The notes beneath the pieces were generated by a model that saw nothing but the letters and a program-made list of their open reading frames with translations, made no database searches and had not been told where the DNA came from. A stretch of 64,000 nt of DNA, taken from NCBI GenBank assembly GCA_014695345.1, contig JACJOC010000012.1:124001-188000 (forward strand), given 5' to 3'. This stretch comes from Cyanobacteria bacterium FACHB-471. Lineage in GTDB: Bacteria; Cyanobacteriota; Cyanobacteriia; Elainellales; Elainellaceae. The position numbers and the translations under genes were made by a program. Position 1 is the first letter of the stretch. The number at the start of each line of letters is the position of its first letter. Positions 1,525-16,173 of this stretch are shown piece by piece.

Positions 1525-2437
1525 GGGTTTTCTCCCGCACCAGTTTTAGAAAAATATCTGTTAAGTTCGCTTGATCTCGGTAGACTCTGACCAGTGGTAG
1601 AGGCTTCAGCACATCAAGGATTTGATATAGCTCGTCTGACTCACGCACATAAATCAACTGTCCTTGAAAGGTGCCACCTAACTCTTTCACTTTACTCACT
1701 TTTTCTGAGTCTAAAGGATGCTCTAGCTCAATCGTGTAAGCGGTTCCTGAGAACTGGCGAATCAGTTCTGAAGTAGGTTCTTCAATTGCAATTTTGCCCT
1801 GTTGGATAATTGCGACCCGATCTGAAAGTTCTTCTGCAATGTCGAGTTGATGTGTAGTGAGTAAGATGGCTCGCCCCTCAGCAGCAATTTCACGAATCAA
1901 CTGTTTTACGGTTTGGGTAGCTTCTACATCCAGTCCTAAAGTGGGCTCATCCAACAACAACAGTTGCGGATCGTGAATTAGGGAAACGGCGATCGCCAGT
2001 TTTTGCTGCATCCCGCGTGAAAGCGTTTGTACGGTCGTACTTCTTTTGTCGGCTAGCCCAAATCGTTCCAATAATTCTTGCCCACGCTGCCGAGCAGTAC
2101 GACGAGTTAGTCCGCGCAGCACGCCAAAATATTCCAAATTTTCCTGGGGCGTGAGTCGCCAGTAGAGGTTGCGGTTGCCCTCCAAAACAGCACCAAGCGA
2201 TCGCAAAGCACGCGAGTCGCGATGAGGATTGCGTCCAGCAATGCTGACCCACCCCTGATCAGGCAAAATCAACCCTGCAATCATCTTGATCGTGGTTGTT
2301 TTTCCGGCTCCATTTGGCCCTAAAAATGCCAGAACCTCACCCACCGACAATTCCAGGGAAACATCCTGAACTGCTTCTAGCACCTTGCCCTGAGATCGAT
2401 AAGTTTTTCGCAGACGTTGAGCTTCGAGGACTCTCAT
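1517..2437 (-). CDS. ABC-2 type transporter ATP-binding protein
   Basis: This is the ATPase of an exporter. Walker A (GPNGAGKTTT), the signature (LSRGMQQKLA), Walker B (LLLLDEPTLGLD) and the switch histidine (LLTTHQ) are all present in the first 215 residues. The C-terminal 90 residues form the accessory region usual in CcmA/DrrA-like ATPases. I chose the ATG at 2437 (MRVLEAQRL) because the family starts just before the first strand; an upstream in-frame start at 2500 would add 21 residues unlike the family. It forms a two-gene operon with the permease at 751-1524. Confidence 0.92.
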   Translation of the reverse strand: MRVLEAQRLRKTYRSQGKVLEAVQDVSLELSVGEVLAFLGPNGAGKTTTIKMIAGLILPDQGWVSIAGRNPHRDSRALRSLGAVLEGNRNLYWRLTPQENLEYFGVLRGLTRRTARQRGQELLERFGLADKRSTTVQTLSRGMQQKLAIAVSLIHDPQLLLLDEPTLGLDVEATQTVKQLIREIAAEGRAILLTTHQLDIAEELSDRVAIIQQGKIAIEEPTSELIRQFSGTAYTIELEHPLDSEKVSKVKELGGTFQGQLIYVRESDELYQILDVLKPLPLVRVYRDQANLTDIFLKLVREKTLG

Positions 2438-2598
2438 AGTATTTCTAAGATTGACTGAAGTAGAGAGCCAGGAGAAGCACCTCTTAACCTGTATTCTCAC
2501 AAATTTGAAAGGGGTAAGGTAAGCTGCAAAATGGTAGATGTGCTTTTATCTAACTCACGCTAGCCTGATCGGTTGATCCGTGTGAATGAGGTGTACGT

Positions 2599-3501
2599 AT
2601 GTTTATTCCACCGGGATTTTATCAACACTCTGTCATGACCTCACTGGGAAAGATGGTCTACTACACGGCTGAGGGTCAGCCTTGGGTGACTCAAGAAGTG
2701 CCCCATGCCGATGTCCCTACACTCGTCTTCTTTCACGGCTTTGGTGGCGGCTCTTCTTCCTATGAGTGGTCTAAGGTTTATCCTGCCTTTGCCGCCCAAT
2801 ATCGCATCCTGGCACCTGACCTGATCGGCTGGGGGCAGTCTGACCATCCCGCCCGCGACTATAAAGTTGAGGACTATGTAAACACGCTGATTGAATTCAT
2901 GGAAAAGACGTGCAGTGGACCGACAACGGTGATTGCGTCGTCTTTGACGGCTGCTTTTGTGATCCGAGCGGCGATCGCCCGTCCCGAATTGTTCAAATCC
3001 CTCATCCTCACTACCGCCGCAGGGCTATCTGACTTTGGTGAAAACTACACTCGCAGCTTCTTCACTCAATTAGTGAATATTCCTGTAGTCGATCGCCTGT
3101 TTTACACTGCTGGAGTCGCTACCAGCTTTGGCATTCGCAGCTTTTTGGAACAGCGCCAATTTGCCCGTCCAGAGCGAATTTCTGACGAAATTGTTGAGGC
3201 ATACCTGGAGTCGGCGACCCAGCCCAATGCTGAATATGCAGCCCTTTCGTTTGTGCGGGGCGACCTGTGCTTTGACCTATCGGAATACATGACCCAGCTC
3301 ACCGTGCCAAGCGTAATCCTCTGGGGTGAAAAATCTCAATTTACGGGTCCAGAAATTGGTCGCCGTCTAGCTGAAATGAATCCTACTGTGGTTCAATTTC
3401 ATCAGCTGACTGATGTTGGGCTAACTCCCCAACTCGAAATTCCTGCTGTCACTATTGGCTTGATTCAAAAGTTTCTACCCCCGCTAGAGCCAGCAGAATA
3501 G
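2599..3501 (+). CDS. Alpha/beta hydrolase-fold protein with degenerate catalytic residues
   Basis: The 300 residues follow the alpha/beta hydrolase fold: an oxyanion-hole HGFGGG near residue 49, the strand APDLIGWGQSD near residue 75, and a nucleophile elbow region. The elbow reads ASSLT instead of the usual G-x-S-x-G. The usual catalytic acid segment reads WGEKSQFTG, where WGExD is expected. The usual C-terminal histidine segment reads DVGLTPQLE, where (A/G)GH-x-PQLE is expected, so leucine replaces the catalytic histidine. This suggests an altered or lost hydrolytic activity. The Anbu-type peptidase starts 45 bases downstream on the same strand and may be cotranscribed. Confidence 0.8.
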   Translation: MFIPPGFYQHSVMTSLGKMVYYTAEGQPWVTQEVPHADVPTLVFFHGFGGGSSSYEWSKVYPAFAAQYRILAPDLIGWGQSDHPARDYKVEDYVNTLIEFMEKTCSGPTTVIASSLTAAFVIRAAIARPELFKSLILTTAAGLSDFGENYTRSFFTQLVNIPVVDRLFYTAGVATSFGIRSFLEQRQFARPERISDEIVEAYLESATQPNAEYAALSFVRGDLCFDLSEYMTQLTVPSVILWGEKSQFTGPEIGRRLAEMNPTVVQFHQLTDVGLTPQLEIPAVTIGLIQKFLPPLEPAE

Positions 3502-3546
3502 AGCATCAGCATAGCGAGCAACTACAGAGGACAACAAACTACGGCT

Positions 3547-4314
3547 ATGACCTATTGCCTGGGCATTATTACTCAACATGGACTCGTGATTGCTGCTGAC
3601 TCTCGCACTAATGCGGGCGTAGACTACATCTCTACCTATCAAAAGCTATTTGACTTTTCCTTACCTGACCAGCGGGTGATTTTGCTCTGCACGTCTGGCA
3701 ATCTGTCGATGACTCAGGCTGTTCTCCATGCCCTGCGGCGTGACCTTAAACTAGGGGAAGGGGACACCCTGCACAGTTTGCCTACCCTATTTGACACGGC
3801 TCGTTACGTAGGCGCTAAAATTCGTCAAGTGCAAGAGCAAGACCGCTCGTGGCTAGAGCGCGACAAGATTGACTATCACTGTAGCTGCCTCCTGGGCGGA
3901 CAACTTCCAGGGGAAGAGCCAGCACTCTATTTAATCTATAGCCAGGGCAATTTTGTTCAGGCGACTCGAGAAACACCTTTTCTGCAAATCGGTGAAACTA
4001 AGTATGGAAAGCCGATTCTCGATCGCACCTTAACTTTTGAAACGCCCCTAGAAGCCGCCACAAAATGTGCGCTTTTATCAATCGACTCAACCATGAAATC
4101 CAATATCTCGGTTGGGCCACCGATTAATCTCATTAGCTATGCTGCTAACAGCTTTAATGTTAAGCATCAGCTGCGGCTCCGAATTGGAGATCCGTACTTA
4201 GCCAAAATTCGCAAGCTTTGGGAAACGTCGCTTCGTCAAGCGTTTGACCAAATGCCCAATATCGAGTGGGATCACGATCTAGGAAACTTACAGGAAGATA
4301 TTTTCACAGATTAG
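3547..4314 (+). CDS. Anbu-type proteasome-like peptidase
   Basis: The 255-residue product begins MTYCLGIITQHGLVIAADSR, the hallmark start of the Anbu (ancestral beta subunit) family of bacterial proteasome relatives, an Ntn-hydrolase fold. Removal of Met1 would expose Thr2 as the N-terminal nucleophile; Asp18 and Lys33 sit where the 20S proteasome triad residues lie. Length agrees with Anbu (about 240-260 residues). In many proteobacteria Anbu is encoded with a transglutaminase-like protein, an alpha-E protein and an ATP-grasp protein. None is nearby here; the only close neighbour is the degenerate hydrolase 45 bases upstream. Substrates of the family are not firmly established. Confidence 0.9.
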   Translation: MTYCLGIITQHGLVIAADSRTNAGVDYISTYQKLFDFSLPDQRVILLCTSGNLSMTQAVLHALRRDLKLGEGDTLHSLPTLFDTARYVGAKIRQVQEQDRSWLERDKIDYHCSCLLGGQLPGEEPALYLIYSQGNFVQATRETPFLQIGETKYGKPILDRTLTFETPLEAATKCALLSIDSTMKSNISVGPPINLISYAANSFNVKHQLRLRIGDPYLAKIRKLWETSLRQAFDQMPNIEWDHDLGNLQEDIFTD

Positions 4315-4547
4315 TGGCTAATGTGAAGAGATTTGCCTGATTTCAAGCTGCCCTAAAAGCTGGATTTACGACTATATAGACTGACCAATAAGCTTCTGTG
4401 AACTTCAAGTTATGCGCTTGACAGGACTGCATCTGCAAGACAATCATGGATCATTACAGTGAAAATACCTAAGGTCACTAACTCGTCGAGGCTCTGAGGT
4501 GCTAGCTACAGTAAAAACACGTACTAGCAAACGACGCACAAGCTCTA

Positions 4548-4620
4548 AGGGGTGCAGAAAATTAAAGCTGTGTTGCAGAAAGTCAGAGTTGTGTTGCAGA
4601 AAGTCAAGGTTGTGTTGCAT
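4548..4620 (+). repeat. 21-bp tandem repeat array (three copies plus a degenerate one)
   Basis: The element TGTGTTGCAG starts at 4569, 4590 and 4611, exactly 21 bases apart, and a degenerate copy precedes it from about 4552. The unit reads roughly GTTGTGTTGCAGAAAGTCA plus two variable bases. In one plus-strand frame it encodes heptapeptides QKVRVVL and QKVKVVL within a 43-codon GTG-initiated frame (4552-4683). It lies in the 846-bp gap upstream of the phototaxis operon. Confidence 0.85.
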
Positions 4621-4943
4621 ATTAGAGTAGGTTGTTGCATGGACTGTTTCTATAGATTGTTCAGAGCTGTCCTTCCGAACTGATTTTCATCTACCAGGTT
4701 CATTTCAGTTCGTTCTACCTACAGATTTATCTACCGCAGTTTTAGCTGCACCGTTTTTTAGTCTCAAGCGGTGTCCTAGTTGGCATAGTTTTTACCAATA
4801 CCAGTAGAAGTTTATTTGCGTGTAAGAAGGGAACCCAGTGTTAGCCTGACAACATCTAATTTGACGCTCCAAACGACTCTCCTCCCTTACTCTCTTTTGA
4901 CACAGGCTAGGGTAGACACAGTCTTGCCTGAACTCAAAATGCT

Positions 4944-4987
4944 GCTTTTAGCCCTCAAGTGGGATCTTGAGGAATTGCGCTAAAAGC
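4944..4987 (+). promoter_or_regulatory. Compound hairpin upstream of the phototaxis operon
   Basis: GCTTTTAGC (4944-4952) pairs perfectly with GCTAAAAGC (4979-4987), and directly inside CCTCAAG (4953-4959) pairs with CTTGAGG (4966-4972), leaving a 6-base loop and a 6-base one-sided bulge. It ends 173 bases before the first operon gene and could be a 5' leader structure or the terminator of an upstream RNA. The rest of the gap 4315-5160 shows only the 21-bp array and no convincing gene. Confidence 0.55.
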
Positions 4988-5160
4988 AAAAGCTTACATT
5001 CTCAGATTGAGAGATCAGGATCATTTCTTAAACCAGCCTCTGACACTTCAACTCAATAGAAGTGAAGGGATTTGCTTCGACTACCAATTTTTAAGTTAAA
5101 CCTCTTCAAAATCTGCCTAAAGACGCGCAGCACACCAATCGGATCGGATATCTCATTCCC

Positions 5161-6471
5161 ATGCTTACTCCAACATCTATTAGCTCATTGGAACCTCCTG
5201 TAAAGACTTGTGAGATAGAAAACCTCAGCGAATTGATTAAACATATTCAATCCTGTGAACTGCAACAGTTTACAGGACGACTAGATTTAGATATTAAAGA
5301 AGCCTCAAACTCACTGTGGAGTTTGTTCTTTTATGCAGGAAAGTTGGTTGGGGCCGCTAGCGAGATGCATTCAGTTCGATGCTGGTATCGCCAAATGGCT
5401 CAAGCTTGTCCCCAATTCAAGCAGGCTACCTATGAGCGCAAGCTAGACCAACCGCAATGGAGTTATTTCTCCATCCAAAATTTGTTGAAGCAGGGAAAAA
5501 TTCCACAGAAGCAGTTAGAGAGTGCGATTGAGGGCTGTGTCACTGAGATTTTGTTTGATATTTTTCAGCAAGATCAGCAACAGGTTGAGCGCTTGCCGAT
5601 CCAGTTAAGTTATCGTCGGGTTCCTCCTAAATTTCAAGATTTGCTGCAAATTCCCATTTCAGCTCAGCAGGTTTGGCTCAAGGCTTCACACGACTGGAAA
5701 CTGTGGCAGCAGGCGGGTTTTGATCAATATTCTCCAAATCTAGCTCCTGTTATTTGGAGTAAAGAGGAATTACGCAAACATACTTCACCTGCGGCATATC
5801 AGAATGTGACTGCGTTAGTGGATGGCGATCGCACTCTACGAGATTTGGCAATTCGACTAAAACAGCCCTTGGTATCTTTAACCCGTTCCATCATGCCCTA
5901 CGTTAACCGAGGCATCATGGGGCTAATTGAAGTTGAGGACTTTAACACTTCAGCCTTACCTAACTCTAGTGCTGCTCCCTCTACATCGACAGCTAATCAG
6001 CAAGAGCCAGCAAAACCTCTAGTGGTTTACATTGATGACAGCCGCTTTGACCGAATCACAATGGGACAGATTTTGCTCAAAGCAGGCTACCGATTCATCA
6101 ATATTCAAGACCCATTACAGGCATTGCCAACGCTGATTGAGCAGAAACCTGATCTCATTTTTTTAGACTTACTTATGCCAGTCACCAATGGATATGAGGT
6201 ATGTGCCCAGATTCGCCGTGTCTCGGCACTTAAAAATACCCCAATCATCATGGTGACTAGCCGAGATGGAATCGTTGATCGAGTACGCGCCAAGCTGGTG
6301 GACGCAACTGGCTTTATTGCTAAGCCGATTGAATCAGAAAAAGTACTCACAACTTTGCTGGAGCATCTACCAACGGTTCAGGCTGATCATCCTTCTCCTC
6401 AGCCTCAAACGTTAAACAGAAACCTGATTGATTGGCAAAAAAAATTGGGAAGCCCTGTAAAGCAACTCTAA
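5161..6471 (+). CDS. pixG: PATAN-REC response regulator (PatA/PixG family)
   Basis: This 436-residue protein has an N-terminal PATAN/DUF4388 domain (about residues 18-160, with FTGRLDLDIKEAS and LFFYAGKLVGA), a middle helical region, and a C-terminal receiver domain (about 285-405). The receiver has the acidic pair IDDS, phospho-acceptor Asp336 in LIFLDLLMP, Thr in VTSRD and Lys in AKPIE. This architecture is that of PatA, PixG and related cyanobacterial regulators, which lie first in taxis operons. Here it heads six genes with chemotaxis functions. It presumably receives phosphate from the CheA encoded downstream and acts on the type IV pilus machinery, as in phototaxis systems; that output is inferred from the family. 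Confidence 0.88.
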   Translation: MLTPTSISSLEPPVKTCEIENLSELIKHIQSCELQQFTGRLDLDIKEASNSLWSLFFYAGKLVGAASEMHSVRCWYRQMAQACPQFKQATYERKLDQPQWSYFSIQNLLKQGKIPQKQLESAIEGCVTEILFDIFQQDQQQVERLPIQLSYRRVPPKFQDLLQIPISAQQVWLKASHDWKLWQQAGFDQYSPNLAPVIWSKEELRKHTSPAAYQNVTALVDGDRTLRDLAIRLKQPLVSLTRSIMPYVNRGIMGLIEVEDFNTSALPNSSAAPSTSTANQQEPAKPLVVYIDDSRFDRITMGQILLKAGYRFINIQDPLQALPTLIEQKPDLIFLDLLMPVTNGYEVCAQIRRVSALKNTPIIMVTSRDGIVDRVRAKLVDATGFIAKPIESEKVLTTLLEHLPTVQADHPSPQPQTLNRNLIDWQKKLGSPVKQL

Positions 6472-6615
6472 CTTCCCTAAAAAGACTCTGCTGGGTCAAT
6501 GGCAAGAAGAGTTTTACAGCCCAATAGCCGGAATCAGGAAAGTATCCGGAGAAGCAAGCAAATTCAAGGGTAAAAGCAGATACCACTTATAAGTTCTATT
6601 TTGTAAACACGGCAC

Positions 6616-6981
6616 ATGAGTACAGTTCTTTTAGTTGAAGATAGTCGCACAGAAACCGAGGTGCTTACTCGATTTCTTAAACAAGCAGGGTTAGAGGTAA
6701 TCAGCGTTGCGTCTAGTGAAGATGCTCGGCTTAAGCTTCAGTTGTATAAGCCTGATCTGGTGTTAATTGATGTAATTTTGCCAGGACAAAGCGGATTTGA
6801 ATTCTGTCGCGAGTTAAAAACCAATGCCAACACGCAAGGAATTCCAGTTGTAATTTGTTCAACCAAAGGAACTGAAGTCGATAAACTTTGGGGCTTGCTG
6901 CTTGGGGCAGATGCCTATATGCCTAAACCTGTTGAGCAAGATGAATTAATCCATACCGTAAAGCGGTTAATGACAGTGTGA
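6616..6981 (+). CDS. pixH: CheY-like response regulator (PixH type)
   Basis: A single receiver domain of 121 residues: the acidic pocket VEDS at residues 7-10, phospho-acceptor Asp52 in VLIDVILP, the conserved threonine/serine region VICSTKG and Lys in MPKPVE. It has no output domain, so it works as a CheY-type diffusible regulator or phosphate sink. It lies 144 bases after the PATAN-REC gene and 16 bases before a CheW gene, matching the G-H-I order of the pix phototaxis locus. The symbol rests on gene order and on the bilin-binding receptor downstream. Confidence 0.88.
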   Translation: MSTVLLVEDSRTETEVLTRFLKQAGLEVISVASSEDARLKLQLYKPDLVLIDVILPGQSGFEFCRELKTNANTQGIPVVICSTKGTEVDKLWGLLLGADAYMPKPVEQDELIHTVKRLMTV

Positions 6982-6997
6982 CGTAGAACAAAATTTT

Positions 6998-7537
6998 ATG
7001 GCAACTTCACTTGATCCAAAGCTGCCAGTGAGTTCAATGCTGGCAGCGGCGAGTCTTGATTTTCTATCGCCCGAATTGCCGCCACCGGACAACCGGGAGC
7101 GGTTACTCCGCGTACATTTGAGTTTACAAGATAGCGCCTTATTACCGCTGAAACACACAACAGAAGTAATCAGGGTAAATGGAGAGGATATTTTGCCCAT
7201 TCCTGAAATGCCTGATTGTGTCTTAGGCATTTGTAACTGGCGAGGAGAAATGCTTTGGCTAATTGACGTGAGTCATTTGGTGGGGCTTTCTCCCCTATCC
7301 TGGCGAAAACAAGGGACGGCAACACCCTTTGTAGTTGTAACTGAAAGTGATGAACAGGCATTAGGACTGCTAGTGATGCAGGTTGAAGAGGTTGAGTTCC
7401 ATTCCTTAGAAAACCTCCAGGCACCCACATTAGGCTTGCTTTCGCCGGGGTTAATGCCATTTGTGTTAGGGGTTTTGCCAAATAGTGGCACTCCTGTTTT
7501 AGATGTTTTGGCGATCGCTCAGCATCACTTTGAATAA
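6998..7537 (+). CDS. pixI: CheW-like scaffold protein (PixI type)
   Basis: The 179 residues contain a CheW domain (about residues 40-175) with the characteristic LPIPEMPDCVLGICNWRGE segment and a C-terminal NSGTPVLDVLAI strand, preceded by a 35-residue proline-rich N-terminal extension. CheW proteins couple the receptor to the histidine kinase CheA. The gene starts 16 bases after the cheY gene and is followed by a 98-base spacer holding overlapping hairpins before the receptor gene. It is probably the adaptor that links the multi-GAF receptor to the CheA at 11666. A second CheW gene closes the operon. Confidence 0.88.
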   Translation: MATSLDPKLPVSSMLAAASLDFLSPELPPPDNRERLLRVHLSLQDSALLPLKHTTEVIRVNGEDILPIPEMPDCVLGICNWRGEMLWLIDVSHLVGLSPLSWRKQGTATPFVVVTESDEQALGLLVMQVEEVEFHSLENLQAPTLGLLSPGLMPFVLGVLPNSGTPVLDVLAIAQHHFE

Positions 7538-7576
7538 CTCACTGAGTAACTCATTGAATAACTCAATGAGTTATTC
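7532..7576 (+). promoter_or_regulatory. Overlapping hairpins in the cheW-receptor spacer
   Basis: TAACTCATTGA (7547-7557) pairs perfectly with TCAATGAGTTA (7563-7573) across a 5-base loop. An alternative outer arm, GAATAACTCA (7532-7541), can pair with TGAGTTATTC (7567-7576). The two folds are mutually exclusive. There is no following T tract, so it looks more like an RNA processing or stability element than a simple terminator. The receptor gene then has a good ribosome site, AAGGAG near 7622, before its GTG start. Confidence 0.6.
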
Positions 7577-7635
7577 GTTAAAAGCTAGCAGCTCAATCTT
7601 AGATCATCCGCACCAGTCAGCAAGGAGAACCAGTC

Positions 7636-10600
7636 GTGCAAAAACTTGATCAATTTCAACAATTTCTAGATGCTCACCCTTCAAATGGGCTACCCCCCAA
7701 CTCAGCATCTGGTTCTACTTCTAACTCTGTTGTGAATGGCACCATGACTAACACGACTGAAGAAGATGTACTTCAATGGCTGCTCAACCTGTCCAATCAG
7801 ATGAGCCAAACAGAAACCATTGATCTTCTGTTAATGACCGTGGTGACAGAAGTTCAACGATACTTCCAGCTAGATCGGGTTTTGGTTTACCAGTTTCACA
7901 ATGAGAACAATGGTGCTGTTTTGGCGGAAGCCATTGTCTCAGGATTTACTCCCACTATTAATGAAGCGTTGCCAGCGATCGCCTTTGGAGCAGCTCACTC
8001 AACCCTTTATCAGCAGCAGCAGATGATTGCGATCGAAAACGGCGCAAAATATCTCACGCCTCATCAGCGCCAACTGTTAGATCGGTTTCAGGTCGCGAGC
8101 AGCCTCAGCCTTCCTGTTTTGCTACGGGGCGGCGTATGGGGTCTGCTGGTCGCCCAACGATGTGCGATTCTGCGCCCCTGGAGTGAAACCGAAAAGCTGG
8201 TGTTGCATCAAGTCAGGACTGAACTTCAATTACACCTTCAGCCTTTAGCGCTACACGCACAGCAACGGCGACAAGTTAAGGTAGAGGATGCTTTCGCCCA
8301 AATTCTAGAGAGAACGCAGCCCTCCTCAGATACCAACACAGCACTTGCAAACTTGTGCCAGGAGTTAAGACTGTTTTACCGAGCCGATCGAGCAGTCGTT
8401 TACCGATTTCATTCTGACTGGAGCGGTGAGTTTGTGGCTGAGTCAGTTGCGGCCGGCTGGATTTCGGTGATTCAAGAACAGGAAATAGATCCTAGTCTCA
8501 GATCAGCCGATATCATCAACCACGATCGCTGCACTACAAAGCGGATGGGTTCTCCCCCCCAGCCCAATGACAATATCAAAATCCTCAAAGATACTCAGGG
8601 TGGCAGCTATGTAAAACGGATGGATGTGAAGCAAGTCAACGATATCTCCAAGGCTGGTTTCTCCGCTTGCTACCTAGACACGCTGGAAAAATATCAGGCT
8701 AAAGCCTATCTTATTGCTCCTATCTATGAAGGCAACGAACTTTGGGGACTACTCGCCATCTATCAAAACACTGCACCTCGGCAATGGCAGGAGCAGGAAG
8801 CTGCACTGTTGTTAGTCTTAGGTGAGCGGCTGAGCATGATGTTGACGCAGTTGAAATATCTAGCGCGACTGCAAGAAAAAACAGACCAGCTCCAAATCCA
8901 ATCTCAACAGCTTACAGAATCGGTAGAGCAAGGAGTAGCCCACAACAAACTCATTTCCAGAATTGGACTGGCTCTAGTTCAAGAAAAATACTCGCCTGAC
9001 AGTCTTTTAGACTTTGTGGTGAGAGAGCTTCGCAAACAGTTAAAGAGCGATCGCGTTGCTGTTTATCGCTTCTACCCAGATTGGGGCGGTGAGTTTGTGG
9101 CGGAATCGGTTGCTGAAGGCTGGGTAAGATTGGTAACTCCAGAAATGAATACCATTTGGGAAGATAGTTACCTTCAAGAAACCCAGGGGGGACGATATCG
9201 CAACAATGAAACCTTTGCGGTAGATGACATTTATCAAGCGGGACACGCAGAATGCCACATCGAGGTGCTGGAGCAATTTGAGGTGAAAGCTTATGCGATC
9301 GCTCCCATCTTCCAGGGTAAAAAACTGTGGGGGCTGATCGGAGCCTATCAAAACAGCCACTCTCGGCATTGGAATGAACTGGACGTAAATCTTTTATCTC
9401 AAGTAGGTGTACAGATTGGGCTAGCACTCCAACAGGGAGAATATTTGGAGCAGTTACAGCAGCGATCAGAGCAATTAAGCAAGGTTGCAGAGCAGGAGCG
9501 GTTGATTACAGAAGTTGTTAACCGCATCCGGCGATCGCTTGACATGCAGCAAGCCTTTAAAACAACCACCCGAGAAATCCGCAATTTCTTAAAGGCTGAT
9601 CGGGTTGCCATCTTCAAGTTTGACCCAGATGGTCGAGATGGCAGGACCGTTGCAGAAGATGTTAATTCTGCCTACACGGCTGCGCTTTCTGTTAAAGTCA
9701 CCGATCATTGTTTTAGCGAAAACTTTGGCCGAAAGTATAAACAGGGCTGGGTGAGCACCATTCCAGATATCTATCAAGCAGGTCTGGCAGACTGTTACAT
9801 TGAAGTCCTTTCCCAATTTCAGGTCAGAGCAAATCTAGTCGTGCCCTTACTCAAAGGAGAGGAACTATGGGGATTGTTCTCCATTCACCAGTGCAGCGGT
9901 CCGCGAGAGTGGCAAGACTCTGAAATTGAATTTGCCAAGCGAATCGCAGCTCAGCTAAACGTGGCGATTCAGCAAGGGGAATACCTGGAGCAAGTACAGC
10001 AAAAGTCTGAGCAATTAGCAAAGGTTGCCGAACAAGAGCAGCTAGTCACCAAAATTGTGGATCGCATTCGGCAATCACTCGACACTCAGCAAGCCTTTAA
10101 AACAACCGCTAGAGAAATCCGCAATTTCTTAAACGCTGATCGAGTCGCTATTTTCAAATTTGACCCAGGCGGCCGGGATGGCAAAACCGTTGCAGAAGAC
10201 GTTCGTTCTGCTTACACCGCTGCACTCTCTGTTAAAGTTACCGATCATTGTTTTACCGAAAACTTTGGTCGGAAGTATAAGCAGGGTTGGGTAAGCAAAG
10301 TTTCAGATATTTACGAGGCGGGACTGGCAGACTGTTACATTGAAGTCCTTTCTCAATTTCAGGTCAGGGCAAATTTAGTGGTACCTTTGCTCAAAGGAGA
10401 AGAACTGTGGGGTCTATTTTGCATTCACCAGTGCAGCGGACCACGAGAATGGCAAGACTCTGAAATCGACTTTGCTAAACGAATTGCGGCTCAGCTCAAC
10501 GTCGCCATTCAGCAAGGGGAGTACCTGGAACAATTGCAGCAAAAGACAGAACAGCTTGCCACTGCTGCCCAGCGAGAAAAGATGGCAAAGGAGCAGCTTC

Positions 10601-11583
10601 AGCAGGAAGTAATGCAACTGTTGTCGGCAGTTCGTCCGGCACTGGATGGCGATCTAACGGTTCGGGCTCCCATGACCGATGACGAGGTGGGCACGATCGC
10701 CGACGCTTACAACAACACGCTGGGCAGTCTGCGACAGATTGTGACTCAGATGCAGATTGCCTCTCAACAGGTTGCCCAAACTTCTCAGATCAGTGAGTCT
10801 TCGATCGCCAGTCTGACTAACCAGGCAAAACACCAGTTTCAAACGCTGAGTCAAACTTTGGAGCGGGTACAGCTTGTGGCCAGTTCCACAGAAGCAGTGG
10901 AGGCAAGCGCTCAACAGGTAGAGGTCGCTGTACAGCAGGCGAATCAAATTGTTCTCGCAGGTGATGCCGCAATGGATCGCACCGTAGATGAGATGCAAAA
11001 CATCCGTGAAACGGTGGCAGAAACGAATAAGCGACTGAAGCGACTGAGCGAATCTTCACAGAAGATTTCTAAAGTGGTGAGTCTAATTAGCAATTTCACC
11101 ACTCAAACTCAACTGTTAGCGCTGAATGCTTCGATTGAAGCGACGAGAGCCGGGGAATATGGACGCGGCTTTGTGGTGGTCGCCGATGAGGTGCGATCGC
11201 TGGCTCGTCAGTCTGCGAATGCGGCAACCGAAATCGAGCAACTGGTGCAGGAAATTCAGGCAAACACCGCCGAAGTGTCTACTGCAATGGAGACTGGCAT
11301 CCAACAAGTTGCATCAGGAACCACCGTGGTCAGCGAGGCCCGTCAAAACCTGAATGCGATCGTTGCAGCCACCGACCAAATCAGTCAGCTTGTGGCTAGC
11401 ATCACTGGTGCAACACAAGAACAAACGCAGCAGTTCAAATCGATGAAGCTAACCGTTGCTGAGGTCGCAGAGATTGCTCAGAAAACCTCGAAAGATTCTG
11501 TCGAAATCTCGCAATCATTTAAGGAGCTGTTGGCGATGTCTCAAGACCTGCAAGTTCAAGCCAATCAGTTCAAAGTCAAGTAA
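7636..11583 (+). CDS. pixJ: Cyanobacteriochrome phototaxis receptor (PixJ-like MCP, five GAF domains)
   Basis: This 1315-residue methyl-accepting protein has five GAF domains, a HAMP-like segment (about 995-1045) and an MCP signalling domain with its hairpin tip near residues 1155-1200 ([12 protein letters not shown]). I see no membrane span. GAF1 (about 55-195) lacks the bilin cysteine. GAF2 has canonical Cys345 (ACYLD) and a possible second Cys299 (DRCTTK) in an insertion. GAF3 has Cys540-His541 (ECHIEV), Trp508 and LQETQGGRY, the red/green signature. GAF4 and GAF5 carry DHCF motifs (Cys692, Cys872) and canonical Cys720 and Cys900, the DXCF class. GAF4 and GAF5 are nearly identical and exactly 180 residues apart. 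GTG start with AAGGAG upstream. Family knowledge: PixJ-type receptors steer phototaxis; the colour classes are predicted from motifs. Confidence 0.93.
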
Positions 11584-11665: not shown

Positions 11666-14600
11666 ATGCCCTTAGATCCGGACATTCGCGAGGAAACCTA
11701 TCCCTACTTTTTGCAAGAGGCACCAGAACTGTTGCAAGCTCTGGAACAAGGTTTGCTGGATTTGCAAGACGGTTGCAGCATCAATCAAATTAATGCTTTG
11801 ATGCGAACGACCCACACGCTCAAAGGGGCAGCAGCAAGTGTGGGGCTAGAAACGATCGCCAACATTGCCCACTCTTTAGAAGATATCTTTAAGGTGCTTT
11901 GCAGACCTGAAGTCATCATCGATCCAGATGTAGCGGCTTTGTTGTTTGAAGGATACGACTGTCTGGCACGACCGCTAAGGGCTGAAATTACAGGTAGCTC
12001 GATCAATACTGCCGAAATTCTTGACCGCTCGGCTGCCATTTTTGCTCAGCTTGAGGCCCGGTTAGGAGACTGTTTTAACCAAGAGGATTACCTGCCTACC
12101 TCAGAGGAGCTAGGGTTTGATATCACACAGTCCATGTTTGAAGTGGGCGTTACCCAACGGTTAAATGACCTGGCTCAAACAGTTGCCCAGGCTCCTCCTC
12201 ATAAAGTTGCGGCGACTCTCCAAATTCATGCCGAAGTGTTTTTTGGTTTGGCTGAATCCTTGGGCTTGCACGGATTTGGAGCGATCGCCGCAATCACACT
12301 TGCAGCCCTAGACCAACATCCTGATCAGGCTGTCACCATCGCGCAATTAGCTTTAGCTGATTTTCAGGCAGGATGCGCGGCCGTGCTAGCAGGCGATCGC
12401 ACTCAAGGAGGACACCCCTCCCTTGCCCTGCAACAGCTTGTAGAGCCCGTTCCAGCTAACGTGACGGAGACGTCGCAACCGGACTGGTTAAGCGAATTTG
12501 ACGCTGCCTTCGAGCAGGAAATTCAGCAGCAGGAGCAGAGCGATGAACTCAATTTAGAAACTACATCTGATGCAGCCTTAACAGATGTAGTTTTGGGAAA
12601 TTTGGAAGACTTGGAAGATCCTACTATCCGCTCTTTTGAATTAGAAGCAAGTTTAAAGGATAAATTTACCTCAGTTGACCTAGAACTTCCCCTAGAAGCC
12701 TCAATCTACCCAATCGGCTTCCCAGAAGACTCGGCAGTCATTCTTCCGGATACTGAAACCGAGCTTGAAGCGGATACTGAGGCAACGATTGAAGCCGCTA
12801 CAGAAACTATTACAGATGACATTACAAATAACTTTATAGAAGACATTACAACAGGAGACATTACAAATGACATTGATATTGCCCCTATTAACTACCATGA
12901 AATAGAAACCAACCATTCTACAGCGACCCAGACCTCGCCTGATTCCATCACGGATACAACGGACACGTTAGAGGAGCCTGTTGTTTCAATTTCTTCGTCA
13001 GATTCTCTATTAGAAGACACGAGTGGCGATCGCGATACAACCCATGAGGTTATTCATGCTTCCGAGCAATTCACTGTTGAAGCGATCGTCGACACAACAG
13101 AAACTAAAGCCACTAATGATATTGAGCACTCTACTCCTTCCCTAAAAACTCACCATCAAAAACATCGAGGATTGTGTAGGGTATTTCAATGGATTCGAGA
13201 TTCCTTCCTGATTCAAGCTGGACTGCACCCCGACAACCAGTATTCTGAGCCAATCGCATCAGCAGAGATTCCTGCAACTGCGGCTTTAATGCAAACTTCT
13301 GCTGAGCAGCCATTAGAGAAGGCAGATCTAGAAGAGGTAAGCTCCAAAGAAGTAATCCCAAAAAAGGTAAATCCAAAAGCGGCAGATCAAGCAGGAGATC
13401 AACAGGTTGCTCCAGCCGAAACGCAACATGAACAATCTGCCGACTCATTGCTAGAAACATTTTGGGCATCCGTTGTCCTGGATGAACTCATCGTCCAGCC
13501 AGAAGGGGAGATCGCCGATTCACCTTCTACACTCTCCCAATCACTCGCTCCCAGCTCTTCGATAACCACCACTAGGGAACCATTTCAGTTATGGCCCCTG
13601 CAAGAAGATTCGCCTTCCCTGCAATCCCAATCTCAAACTACGTCTAAAGTAGCCGACTCGATCGCTTCCAAAAAACATTTTCGATCTAATCAGGTGCGGG
13701 TCAATGTAGAACATCTCGACCAGCTAAATTATTCAATTGGGGAATTGCTGACTCAGCAAAATCGTCAGTCGCTCCAAAATGAACGCCTGCAAGCGGAAGT
13801 AAAACTGCTATTAAAGCGGCTAAACCAGCACCAGCAAGTGCTGAGCCAGCTTCAAGATCAGGTCGATCGCCAGCCTTCGCAATCGTTATCTGTTGAGCAA
13901 AAACTGGTAGCCGCCAAGCGCACAATGTCTCCCCTTCAGGCTTTGCCTTCAACGTTTGGCGATCGCTTCGATACTTTAGAACTGTCTCGCTATAGTGATT
14001 CTCATTTGCTAGTTCAATCTCTGCTAGATGACACGATGCAAATTGCTGAAGCGGCTGAAGCGATTGACCTATTCTCTCAAGAGTCTAATCAAATTTTCGA
14101 GAAACAGCAGCGACTGTTAGCCGGAACTCGTGATGCATTGATGCAGGCTAGAATGCTGCCCTTGAGTGAGGTATTCAACCGTATTCCACGTGTTTTGCAA
14201 AAGTTAAAAACCTCAAGCGACAAGCAAGCTCACCTGGAACTGCACGGAACGGAAGTATTGGTTGATAAGGCGATCGCCGAGAAACTCTACGAGCCGTTGC
14301 TGCACCTAATTCGCAATGCGTTTGATCATGCCATTGAGCCAGTTGTGATTCGCCGCCAACAGGGCAAACCAGATGTCGGGCAAATTGGAATTAGCGCCTA
14401 TCACCAAGGCAAATATTTGATTATTGCAGTGCAAGATGATGGTAAAGGATTGGACTATGAGCGAATTCGGCAGCGACTGGTGGAGCGTCAATTGGTTTCA
14501 TCCAACCAGGCAAGTACTCTTACTCAGTCTCAGCTAATCGATTTCCTGTTTGAACCAGGCTTTTCCACGGTTACCCAGGTCAACACTACTTCAGGACGAG

Positions 14601-15676
14601 GAGTGGGTCTAGATGTTGTGCGAGAGCAAATTCTGGGATTGCAGGGGGCAGTCAGCGTGCAATCGGCGATCAATCAGGGAACTACTTTTACACTTCAGAT
14701 TCCGCTGAGTTTGGCGATCGCCAAGCTGCTGATTTGTCAGGCGGGTACTGGAACCTACGCACTCACCACCGACGCGATCGAGCAGATTCTAATTCCCACA
14801 TCTCAACAGATTCAAGAGCGGCAAGGTCGTAAAATCTTGCACTGGCAGAAAGCAGGCACCTCACAGCTAATCCGGATTCATTCCATTGCAAAACTGCTAA
14901 ACTACCGTTCATCCATTACGTCTTTATCACCTCAACCCGCATCTGCCACTTCAACTCTAGACAAACACGTCCTTCTGGTTCGCCATCAGGGAGAACTAAT
15001 CGGCTTGGAAGTTGATCAGCTGATTGGAGAGCAAGAACTGGTGATTCGTCCGTTGGGAACCAGACTGGACTCGCCCAATTATGTCCAGGGGGCAAGTGTT
15101 TTAGCCGATGGACGACTCACTTTAGTCGTGGATGGAGGTGCATTATTACGGCAAGTCCTCAATCAACCGCTAGCCCCTCGTTCTTCAAGTGTTGCTCCCA
15201 TCAATTCTCCAATCATGGAGCAACCTCCACTACAAACAACGGCTACTCTCATTCCCACCTCTAACTCTAAGGAATGGGAGGATGATAAAACAATTTTGAT
15301 TGCAGAAGACTCGATCACAGTGCGGCAAACACTCACCTTGACGCTACAAAAAGCAGGCTATCAAGTGTTACAAGCCAAAGATGGACAAGAAGCGATCGAG
15401 CAACTGCAACAACCAAATAATGTTCGGTTAATGTTTTGCGATCTGGAAATGCCTCGAATGAATGGCTTTGAATTTCTTAAACAGCGACAGCAGTTTCCGG
15501 CGATGGCAAAAATTCCCGTGATTGTTTTAACCTCGCGCAGTGGCGAAAAGCATCGTCTGTTGGCAATGGAACTGGGTGCAACGGCTTACATCACAAAACC
15601 CTACATCGAGCACAAGCTGCTAGGAATGGTGGCAGACCTGTTTGAACCAAAAGAGATAGAAGTGTCCGCGGACTGA
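11666..15676 (+). CDS. pixL: Hybrid chemotaxis histidine kinase CheA with receiver (PixL type)
   Basis: This 1336-residue kinase starts with an Hpt domain whose phosphorylatable His50 lies in TTHTLKGAA. A second helical Hpt-like domain without a clear histidine follows (about 145-250), then a long acidic, threonine- and aspartate-rich linker (about 270-660) with DIT-type repeats near 12805-12890. Next come the dimerisation helices, the ATPase domain (N box LIRNAFDH near 883, G boxes DDGKGLD and GRGVGLDVV), a CheW-like domain, and a C-terminal receiver with phospho-acceptor Asp1259 (FCDLEMP). This is the PixL/TaxAY1-type architecture. It should phosphorylate the receivers encoded upstream and its own receiver under control of the multi-GAF receptor. 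Confidence 0.92.
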   Translation: MPLDPDIREETYPYFLQEAPELLQALEQGLLDLQDGCSINQINALMRTTHTLKGAAASVGLETIANIAHSLEDIFKVLCRPEVIIDPDVAALLFEGYDCLARPLRAEITGSSINTAEILDRSAAIFAQLEARLGDCFNQEDYLPTSEELGFDITQSMFEVGVTQRLNDLAQTVAQAPPHKVAATLQIHAEVFFGLAESLGLHGFGAIAAITLAALDQHPDQAVTIAQLALADFQAGCAAVLAGDRTQGGHPSLALQQLVEPVPANVTETSQPDWLSEFDAAFEQEIQQQEQSDELNLETTSDAALTDVVLGNLEDLEDPTIRSFELEASLKDKFTSVDLELPLEASIYPIGFPEDSAVILPDTETELEADTEATIEAATETITDDITNNFIEDITTGDITNDIDIAPINYHEIETNHSTATQTSPDSITDTTDTLEEPVVSISSSDSLLEDTSGDRDTTHEVIHASEQFTVEAIVDTTETKATNDIEHSTPSLKTHHQKHRGLCRVFQWIRDSFLIQAGLHPDNQYSEPIASAEIPATAALMQTSAEQPLEKADLEEVSSKEVIPKKVNPKAADQAGDQQVAPAETQHEQSADSLLETFWASVVLDELIVQPEGEIADSPSTLSQSLAPSSSITTTREPFQLWPLQEDSPSLQSQSQTTSKVADSIASKKHFRSNQVRVNVEHLDQLNYSIGELLTQQNRQSLQNERLQAEVKLLLKRLNQHQQVLSQLQDQVDRQPSQSLSVEQKLVAAKRTMSPLQALPSTFGDRFDTLELSRYSDSHLLVQSLLDDTMQIAEAAEAIDLFSQESNQIFEKQQRLLAGTRDALMQARMLPLSEVFNRIPRVLQKLKTSSDKQAHLELHGTEVLVDKAIAEKLYEPLLHLIRNAFDHAIEPVVIRRQQGKPDVGQIGISAYHQGKYLIIAVQDDGKGLDYERIRQRLVERQLVSSNQASTLTQSQLIDFLFEPGFSTVTQVNTTSGRGVGLDVVREQILGLQGAVSVQSAINQGTTFTLQIPLSLAIAKLLICQAGTGTYALTTDAIEQILIPTSQQIQERQGRKILHWQKAGTSQLIRIHSIAKLLNYRSSITSLSPQPASATSTLDKHVLLVRHQGELIGLEVDQLIGEQELVIRPLGTRLDSPNYVQGASVLADGRLTLVVDGGALLRQVLNQPLAPRSSSVAPINSPIMEQPPLQTTATLIPTSNSKEWEDDKTILIAEDSITVRQTLTLTLQKAGYQVLQAKDGQEAIEQLQQPNNVRLMFCDLEMPRMNGFEFLKQRQQFPAMAKIPVIVLTSRSGEKHRLLAMELGATAYITKPYIEHKLLGMVADLFEPKEIEVSAD

Positions 15677-15696: not shown

Positions 15697-16173
15697 ATGC
15701 ATGACGATTCAAAATTAGAGAAGCTGATTGTTTTTGCGATCGCCAACTATGATCTAGCGCTGCCCATTGATCAAGTGCTGCGGGTAATCAACTATCCCCT
15801 TGATACAAGCAAATCACTCGAAAAAATCGGGTTGATTCAATGCGGTCGCCACACGATTAGAGCAGTGAATTTATCTCAGCAGCTTCAGCTCGAAACCCCT
15901 GATGCCCAGCCTTTGCCATTTCTGATGTTAGTTCGAGGGATAGATCAAGAACTGTGTGGCATTCCAGTCTCCGCTCCACCCGATGTGATTGAAATTTCTA
16001 TTGAGGCACTACAGCCGCTCGAATGGACTTCTACCACATCCCCGTTGCTCAAAGTAGTCAGCCATACTGCTGTCGTCAAGCAAACGGACGAAACCCTATC
16101 TATCCTTTTGCTTGATCTGTATCAAGTGCTAGCTGACTCAACACAAAAACTACTAGGTGCATCTATAGCTTGA
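15697..16173 (+). CDS. Second CheW-like protein of the phototaxis operon
   Basis: A 158-residue protein beginning 21 bases after the cheA stop. The sequence follows the CheW fold: VFAIANYDLALPIDQVLRVINYP at the N-terminus, a central strand set with PLPFLMLVRG, and a C-terminal LSILLLDLYQVL strand. It is more divergent than the first CheW at 6998. It may bind CheA or compete with the first adaptor, giving a second array composition. The gene closes the six-gene operon; the next gene is on the other strand. Confidence 0.72.
   Translation: MHDDSKLEKLIVFAIANYDLALPIDQVLRVINYPLDTSKSLEKIGLIQCGRHTIRAVNLSQQLQLETPDAQPLPFLMLVRGIDQELCGIPVSAPPDVIEISIEALQPLEWTSTTSPLLKVVSHTAVVKQTDETLSILLLDLYQVLADSTQKLLGASIA

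Follow-up and report, generated by a model that had tools for sequence, protein, structure and literature searches.

Three apparent cyanobacteriochrome lineages in a putative phototaxis receptor of a cyanobacterium

Introduction

Can one soluble receptor read several parts of the spectrum and deliver a combined signal to one CheA? The question is raised by a gene of Cyanobacteria bacterium FACHB-471, located in a stretch of 64,000 nucleotides (hereafter the window), which an earlier note described as a phototaxis receptor joining three apparent cyanobacteriochrome (CBCR) classes. The idea of a multicolour receptor is already established for PtxD, the NpF2164 protein acting in hormogonia of Nostoc punctiforme, which has seven GAF domains, at least six of them binding bilin, presents six-colour conversion and is required for positive phototaxis, as stated in passages of PMC5812497. 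The same passages describe PixJ1, encoded in a tax operon, as having two transmembrane domains and bilin in one GAF only, and are the source of the names PixG, PixH, PixI and PixL applied below.

Here we describe the follow-up of this gene. We hold it probable (roughly 0.7) that it encodes a soluble PixJ/PtxD-type phototaxis receptor in which GAF2 to GAF5 are bilin sensors acting through a single CheA; bilin binding, the colours, the direction of signalling, the motility output and the integration of colours are what we infer from the sequence.

A five-GAF receptor in a tax operon

The open reading frame occupies exactly 7636-11583, starts with GTG, carries AGGAG immediately 5' of this codon, and encodes 1315 amino acids on the plus strand. 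Pfam recognizes in it five GAF stretches (E 5.9e-100) and an MCPsignal domain (4.6e-40), together with a HAMP match that is sub-threshold, at 17 bits against a cut-off of 25. No transmembrane helix is predicted in the receptor and its highest 19-residue hydropathy is 1.45, in keeping with the earlier description of the protein as soluble. A codon-by-codon check places C299, C345, W508, C540-H541, C692, C720, C872 and C900, as well as DHCF at residues 690-693 and 870-873, so that all the Cys, Trp and His residues and the DHCF motifs that had been named for four of the GAFs are present, and those originally numbered stand at their numbers.

The gene belongs to a six-gene tax operon ordered DUF4388-REC, REC, CheW, receptor, CheA, CheW (Table 1), where DUF4388 is what we take to be the PATAN domain. 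CBCR-lineage GAFs joined to an MCP, in a cluster with DUF4388-receiver, CheY, CheW and CheA proteins, correspond to the PixJ/PtxD type, and the single CheA that had been proposed as the output partner is indeed encoded directly after the receptor, at 11666-15676. Among the 16 loci compared, the first five genes occur in the order of the window also in L041, L042, L043, L044, L055, L088 and L095; the second CheW is present in the first six of these and not seen in L095, whose CheA sits close to the end of the available stretch. Judged by its genes, the operon fits the tax1/ptx clusters known from Synechocystis and N. punctiforme (passages of PMC5812497).

The CheA of the window has 1336 amino acids, versus open reading frames of 1050-1171 in eight of nine complete relatives (the ninth, L096, has 1411), and a long linker rich in Asp, Glu and Thr separates its Hpt from its dimerisation domain.

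Table 1. Features of the receptor locus (positions in the window; residues of the receptor)
Feature	Position	Strand	Basis
PixG-like protein, DUF4388 + receiver domain	5161..6471	+	Pfam, locus comparison
PixH-like CheY, receiver only	6616..6981	+	Pfam, locus comparison
PixI-like CheW	6998..7537	+	Pfam, locus comparison
Five-GAF MCP photoreceptor (putative), PixJ/PtxD type, 1315 aa	7636..11583	+	ORF list, Pfam, operon, tree, class HMMs
GAF1, residues 62-209, without canonical Cys	7819..8262	+	tree clade of 20 first GAFs, SH-aLRT 100
GAF2, residues 233-411, insert-Cys lineage	8332..8868	+	alignment, tree, motif count, codons
GAF3, residues 454-606, red/green (XRG) lineage	8995..9453	+	residues, tree, identity
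GAF4, residues 637-786, DXCF, Cys692 + canonical Cys720-Tyr721	9544..9993	+	motif, alignment, tree
GAF5, residues 817-966, DXCF, Cys872 + canonical Cys900-Tyr901	10084..10533	+	alignment, tree
HAMP-like, residues 1004-1034	10645..10737	+	Pfam, below cut-off
MCP signalling domain, residues 1120-1280	10993..11475	+	Pfam
PixL-like CheA: Hpt, dimerisation (weak), HATPase, CheW, receiver	11666..15676	+	Pfam, locus comparison
Second CheW-like protein, last in operon	15697..16173	+	Pfam, locus comparison

Lineages of the GAF domains

The GAFs were placed in a tree of 132 rows, built from 127 GAFs of 30 proteins (that of the window included) and six solved reference GAFs, with one row of at most 110 residues left out; it is a quick tree, with support below 80 on 49 of its 128 inner branches. 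Among the references, 6bhn, 5dfx and 6oap are presumably NpR6012g4, Slr1393g3 and PPHK, respectively. Two others are identified in passages of PMC5240096 and PMC11284453, 3W2Z as AnPixJg2 and 4GLQ as TePixJ. By this tree and by class HMMs, the four Cys-bearing GAFs fall into three lineages: GAF2 into the insert-Cys lineage, GAF3 into the red/green one, and GAF4 and GAF5 into the DXCF one. A tree gathering all four in one class had been named beforehand as one of the results that would overturn the proposal of three classes in one receptor; this is not the tree obtained, and the three lineages are supported. GAF1, which possesses C176 and no Cys at the canonical place, groups with 19 other first GAFs, including those of PtxD-type receptors (SH-aLRT 100).

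GAF3 carries W508-E-D510 of a WXDXXL motif, Cys540-His541, Phe487 and Phe548. It is 61% identical to AnPixJg2, 61% to NpR6012g4 and 50% to Slr1393g3, and groups with these three (SH-aLRT 86), as expected of the red/green (XRG) lineage. The likeness to these solved structures, comprising WXDXXL, Cys-His and both Phe residues, concerns GAF3 only. Since the XRG Trp and the two red/green Phe residues are kept, the likeliest cycle for this domain is red/green; typical XRG GAFs with this Trp bind phycocyanobilin without isomerisation, according to the text available from PMC11284453.

GAF4 and GAF5 have both the DXCF Cys and the canonical Cys. With 88% identity across 175 columns, the two are close tandem duplicates, which limits the five GAFs to three kinds of sensor at most. 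Both domains stand in a DXCF clade (SH-aLRT 95) separate from the clade of TePixJ (95), to which they are 38% identical, and, unlike TePixJ, which has Cys-His, they carry a canonical Cys-Tyr, a pair found in 15 of 25 sampled DXCF GAFs (classes by regular expression). Their colours are therefore not readable from TePixJ: of the "blue to violet" label once given to them, the DXCF motif and the two cysteines stand, and the colour is a guess from the class. DXCF GAFs of this kind occur once each in genomes G007 and G025 and twice in G008. As in PixJ1 and TePixJ (blue/green DXCF), a DXCF GAF is joined to an MCP, and PixJ1 shares the tax operon as well; unlike PixJ1, the window receptor has no predicted transmembrane helix.

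An insert-Cys GAF that has lost its motif Asp

In GAF2, Cys299 (CXXK) lies inside the insert and the canonical Cys is Cys345-Tyr346. The domain clusters with its counterparts in G001, G002, G007, G008 and G025 (SH-aLRT 96), and the wider group takes in g3 of the PtxD ortholog L088, the NpF2164g3 counterpart (SH-aLRT 87). The loop Cys, the canonical Cys and the placement beside a GAF orthologous to NpF2164g3 argue together for the insert-Cys lineage, and both C299 and C345 are kept in all eight aligned sequences, i.e., the window and seven relatives.

The DXCF/DTYL motif of GAF2, in turn, lacks its conserved residues, with Ile314 at the place of Asp and Ile316 at that of Tyr; this sets it apart from UG1 (Mbr3854g4) and VO1 (NpF2164g3), with which it shares the insert Cys and CXXK. 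The motif Asp is present in 81 of 84 distinct insert-Cys GAFs, the three exceptions, all with Ile, being the window and its congeners G001 and G002. Two residues further, Tyr, His or Phe is found in 77 of the 84 and Ile in six (the window, G001, G002, G007, G008 and G025). Passages of PMC5240096 report that Asp and Tyr variants of UG1 and UG2 still bind bilin and photoconvert less efficiently, and that a change of Tyr to Phe retains almost 90% of the conversion efficiency, so that the Tyr alone would not be decisive for GAF2. Because Ile314 and Ile316 occupy positions at which mutations of UG1 and UG2 reduce photoconversion, it is doubtful that GAF2 is a working violet/UV switch: its candidate membership in the insert-Cys class is borne out as a lineage by tree and HMM, and the switching that this class would imply is not. 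In UG1, Phe684 and Tyr777 tune the near-UV and green peaks (PMC5240096, same passages); by spacing calculated from residue numbers, Phe266 and Tyr353 of the window appear to match them. Asp312 precedes the lost Asp position by two residues.

Selection within the genus

Against G001, dN/dS is 0.11 for GAF1, 0.065 for GAF2 and 0.077 for GAF3. Against G002 it is 0.11 for GAF1, 0.061 for GAF2, 0.211 for GAF3, 0.038 for GAF4, 0.076 for GAF5 and 0.069 for the MCP, where the GAF3 value, obtained over 112 codons of a gene that is frame-broken in this very domain, is probably inflated by the out-of-frame letters included. These figures are to be read with a high dS (0.65-1.37), and the two comparisons are not independent, as little separates G001 from G002. 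Tree, conservation and dN/dS rule out a chance scatter of Cys residues along the receptor.

In G002, the receptor gene (locus L040, G002:C590) is split in GAF3 at 2020-2122, into overlapping open reading frames at 2020-3747 and 53-2122 on the minus strand; the break may be either a draft-assembly error or a real frameshift.

Relation to PtxD and recurrence of the architecture

The ortholog of PtxD (NpF2164) was located as L088 of genome G388, with seven GAFs, an MCP and the same gene cluster; its insert Cys is residue 546 counting from Met58 of the open reading frame, the number published for NpF2164g3. NpF2164 itself was sought in G409, a genome matching the NpR6012g4 domain at 99%, where no open frame as long as PtxD gave a match. 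The L088 receptor and that of the window have in common a Cys-less GAF1, insert-Cys and red/green GAFs, an MCP, and the CheY/CheW/CheA gene order. By the class HMMs, L088 presents a Cys-less GAF1, two insert-Cys GAFs, three red/green GAFs and one of g7 type, and no DXCF GAF, whereas the five GAFs of the window comprise a Cys-less GAF1, one insert-Cys, one red/green and two DXCF domains, the insert-Cys GAF being without the motif Asp and Tyr. The absence of DXCF from L088 makes the third class of the window a real difference. By its domains and operon, then, the window receptor belongs to the same family as PtxD, as what looks like a close cousin with a third kind of sensor added.

GAF5 of L088 (residues 928-1080) has Cys-Tyr, whereas g4 and g6 have Cys-His. 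NpF2164g5 of PtxD is reported in passages of PMC6121604 as a fluorescent, non-converting GAF, to which this Tyr may be related.

The frequency of the combination was approached with an insert-Cys GAF model, scoring up to 12 candidates per genome; of 387 genomes of the class, themselves drawn from a larger group, it matched 152. The sample consisted of the 60 strongest further loci among the matches listed and 30 earlier proteins, and is biased to insert-Cys proteins; its 94 GAF entries correspond to 93 different sequences, as L062 and L092 are identical, and the frame-broken G002 gene accounts for two entries, neither scored as three-class, while the G001 ortholog ends at a contig edge. All three classes are present in at least five of the 94 entries (the window, L095, L061, L136 and L125). 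A first regular-expression classifier gave three (the window, L095, L061), a second one also three (the window, L095, L136), class HMMs with key residues four (the window, L095, L061, L136), and L125 was added by reading its domains; five is a lower bound, since domains were read individually in eight proteins only. Their outputs, checked by Pfam, are an MCP in the window and a histidine kinase in L061 and, by sequence pattern, an MCP in L095 and L125 and a histidine kinase in L136. The three-class receptor thus recurs across different families, and a unique architecture is ruled out. Insert-Cys combined with red/green is commoner: 14 of the 94 entries, 12 of them among 34 recognized MCP proteins, by a pattern that misses some MCPs. 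In passages of the open-licence PMC literature, no description of a three-class receptor was found.

MCP receptors of this kind combine insert-Cys with red/green, insert-Cys with DXCF, or all three, several of them with the same gene order, a pattern suggestive of PtxD-type receptors assembled from interchangeable colour modules.

Proposed mechanism and alternatives

In the reading that we favor, GAF2 to GAF5 would each most likely carry a phycocyanobilin-derived chromophore and GAF1 none. GAF3 is the expected red/green switch; GAF4 and GAF5 are expected to act as dual-Cys DXCF sensors whose dark state absorbs at short wavelengths (violet to blue); and GAF2 is the expected insert-Cys near-UV/violet absorber, Phe266 and Tyr353 recalling the near-UV/green UG1, although the loss of the conserved Asp and Tyr may leave it a poor switch, or a fixed absorber or structural relay. 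Conformational changes driven by light would pass through the linkers to the HAMP and MCP domains and control how active PixL, the single CheA, is; PixL would in turn act through PixH and PixG (a CheY and a PATAN-type CheY) on type IV pili.

That the domains could instead belong to a chemoreceptor or redox receptor, its GAFs bilin-free and their cysteines kept for another purpose, is very improbable. GAFs can persist in these proteins without the canonical Cys, as GAF1 and slot 3 of three relatives do, but the tree places the four domains in question beside bilin GAFs that have been characterised or beside orthologs of these, the lineage-specific second Cys is kept wherever the lineage has one, and the genome encodes a bilin reductase. 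A more serious contender, to which we nevertheless give well under even odds, is a receptor with only two working colours, in which GAF3 and the GAF4/GAF5 pair switch and GAF2 binds bilin but is locked, serving as fixed absorber, light-energy donor or structural relay. It would agree with the rarity of Ile at the Asp position (3/84, all from this genus) and at the Tyr position (6/84), with the UG1/UG2 variants that bind bilin and convert less well (PMC5240096, passages), and with a precedent for a non-converting, fluorescent GAF in PtxD itself, NpF2164g5 (PMC6121604, passages). Yet within the genus GAF2 (dN/dS 0.061-0.065) is conserved to the same degree as GAF3, both its cysteines are kept in the window and in 7/7 relatives, Asp312 could substitute for the lost Asp, and the Tyr-to-Phe variant of PMC5240096 lost little efficiency (almost 90% retained). 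A bolder version, speculative and in our view unlikely, is that GAF2 of this genus is under selection and has turned from a switch into something else, staying doubly linked, working without the motif Asp or using Asp312 in a new register; the receptor would then join a red/green switch and a DXCF switch present in two copies to a near-UV absorber that is locked, and would read colour balance against a near-UV reference.

The origin of GAF3 calls for its own weighing. In the same-family relatives G007, G008 and G025, the GAF of slot 3 is devoid of the canonical Cys and lies in another clade of the best tree, which indicates that a red/green GAF is not essential to this receptor type. This genus might have gained its slot-3 red/green GAF by domain exchange, the receptor being a recent mosaic, a possibility to which we give somewhat less than an even chance. 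It would account for the 61% identity of GAF3 to AnPixJg2, as against 51% to slot 3 of G008 and 48% to that of G007, for its best match in G025 being slot 2 (47%), and for the clade change, in proteins whose GAF4 is 71-74% and whose HAMP-MCP part is 79-80% identical to those of the window. However, an AU test (p 0.44) does not reject a tree in which all slot-3 GAFs form a single clade, identity is equally low for GAF1 in these three relatives (47-52%), and fast decay following the loss of the Cys accounts for the same slot-3 pattern.

Whatever the history of its third slot, the receptor that we favor, with GAF2 to GAF5 as bilin sensors of three lineages, would be a handy short system in which to study the weighing of several colours by one CheA, a matter that, to our knowledge, is open for PtxD too. 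Its most interesting part is the Asp-less yet conserved GAF2, in which nature offers a way to see whether an insert-Cys photocycle can do without the near-universal Asp.

The host genome

In the host genome, bilin reductase (PF05996) is matched once and the PilT family three times; two of the PilT-family matches exceed the cut-off, which 5 of 14 control genomes also pass. Two further proteins of this genome carry two DPCF GAFs each: L049 (G000:C99:14000-24000), at 2516-7168, has a 19-residue hydropathy maximum of 2.51 and adjoins tax-like genes, and L050 (G000:C63:352000-362000), at 4376-8011, has a maximum of 2.38. The DXCF GAFs of both group with TePixJ. From the hydrophobic stretches, DPCF GAFs and tax-like neighbours of L049, the host seems to have membrane-bound as well as soluble phototaxis-type receptors. 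On the contig of the receptor, at a distance of about 47 kb, L051 (G000:C23:76000-90000) encodes at 4991-8857 another insert-Cys GAF protein, with a histidine-kinase pattern.
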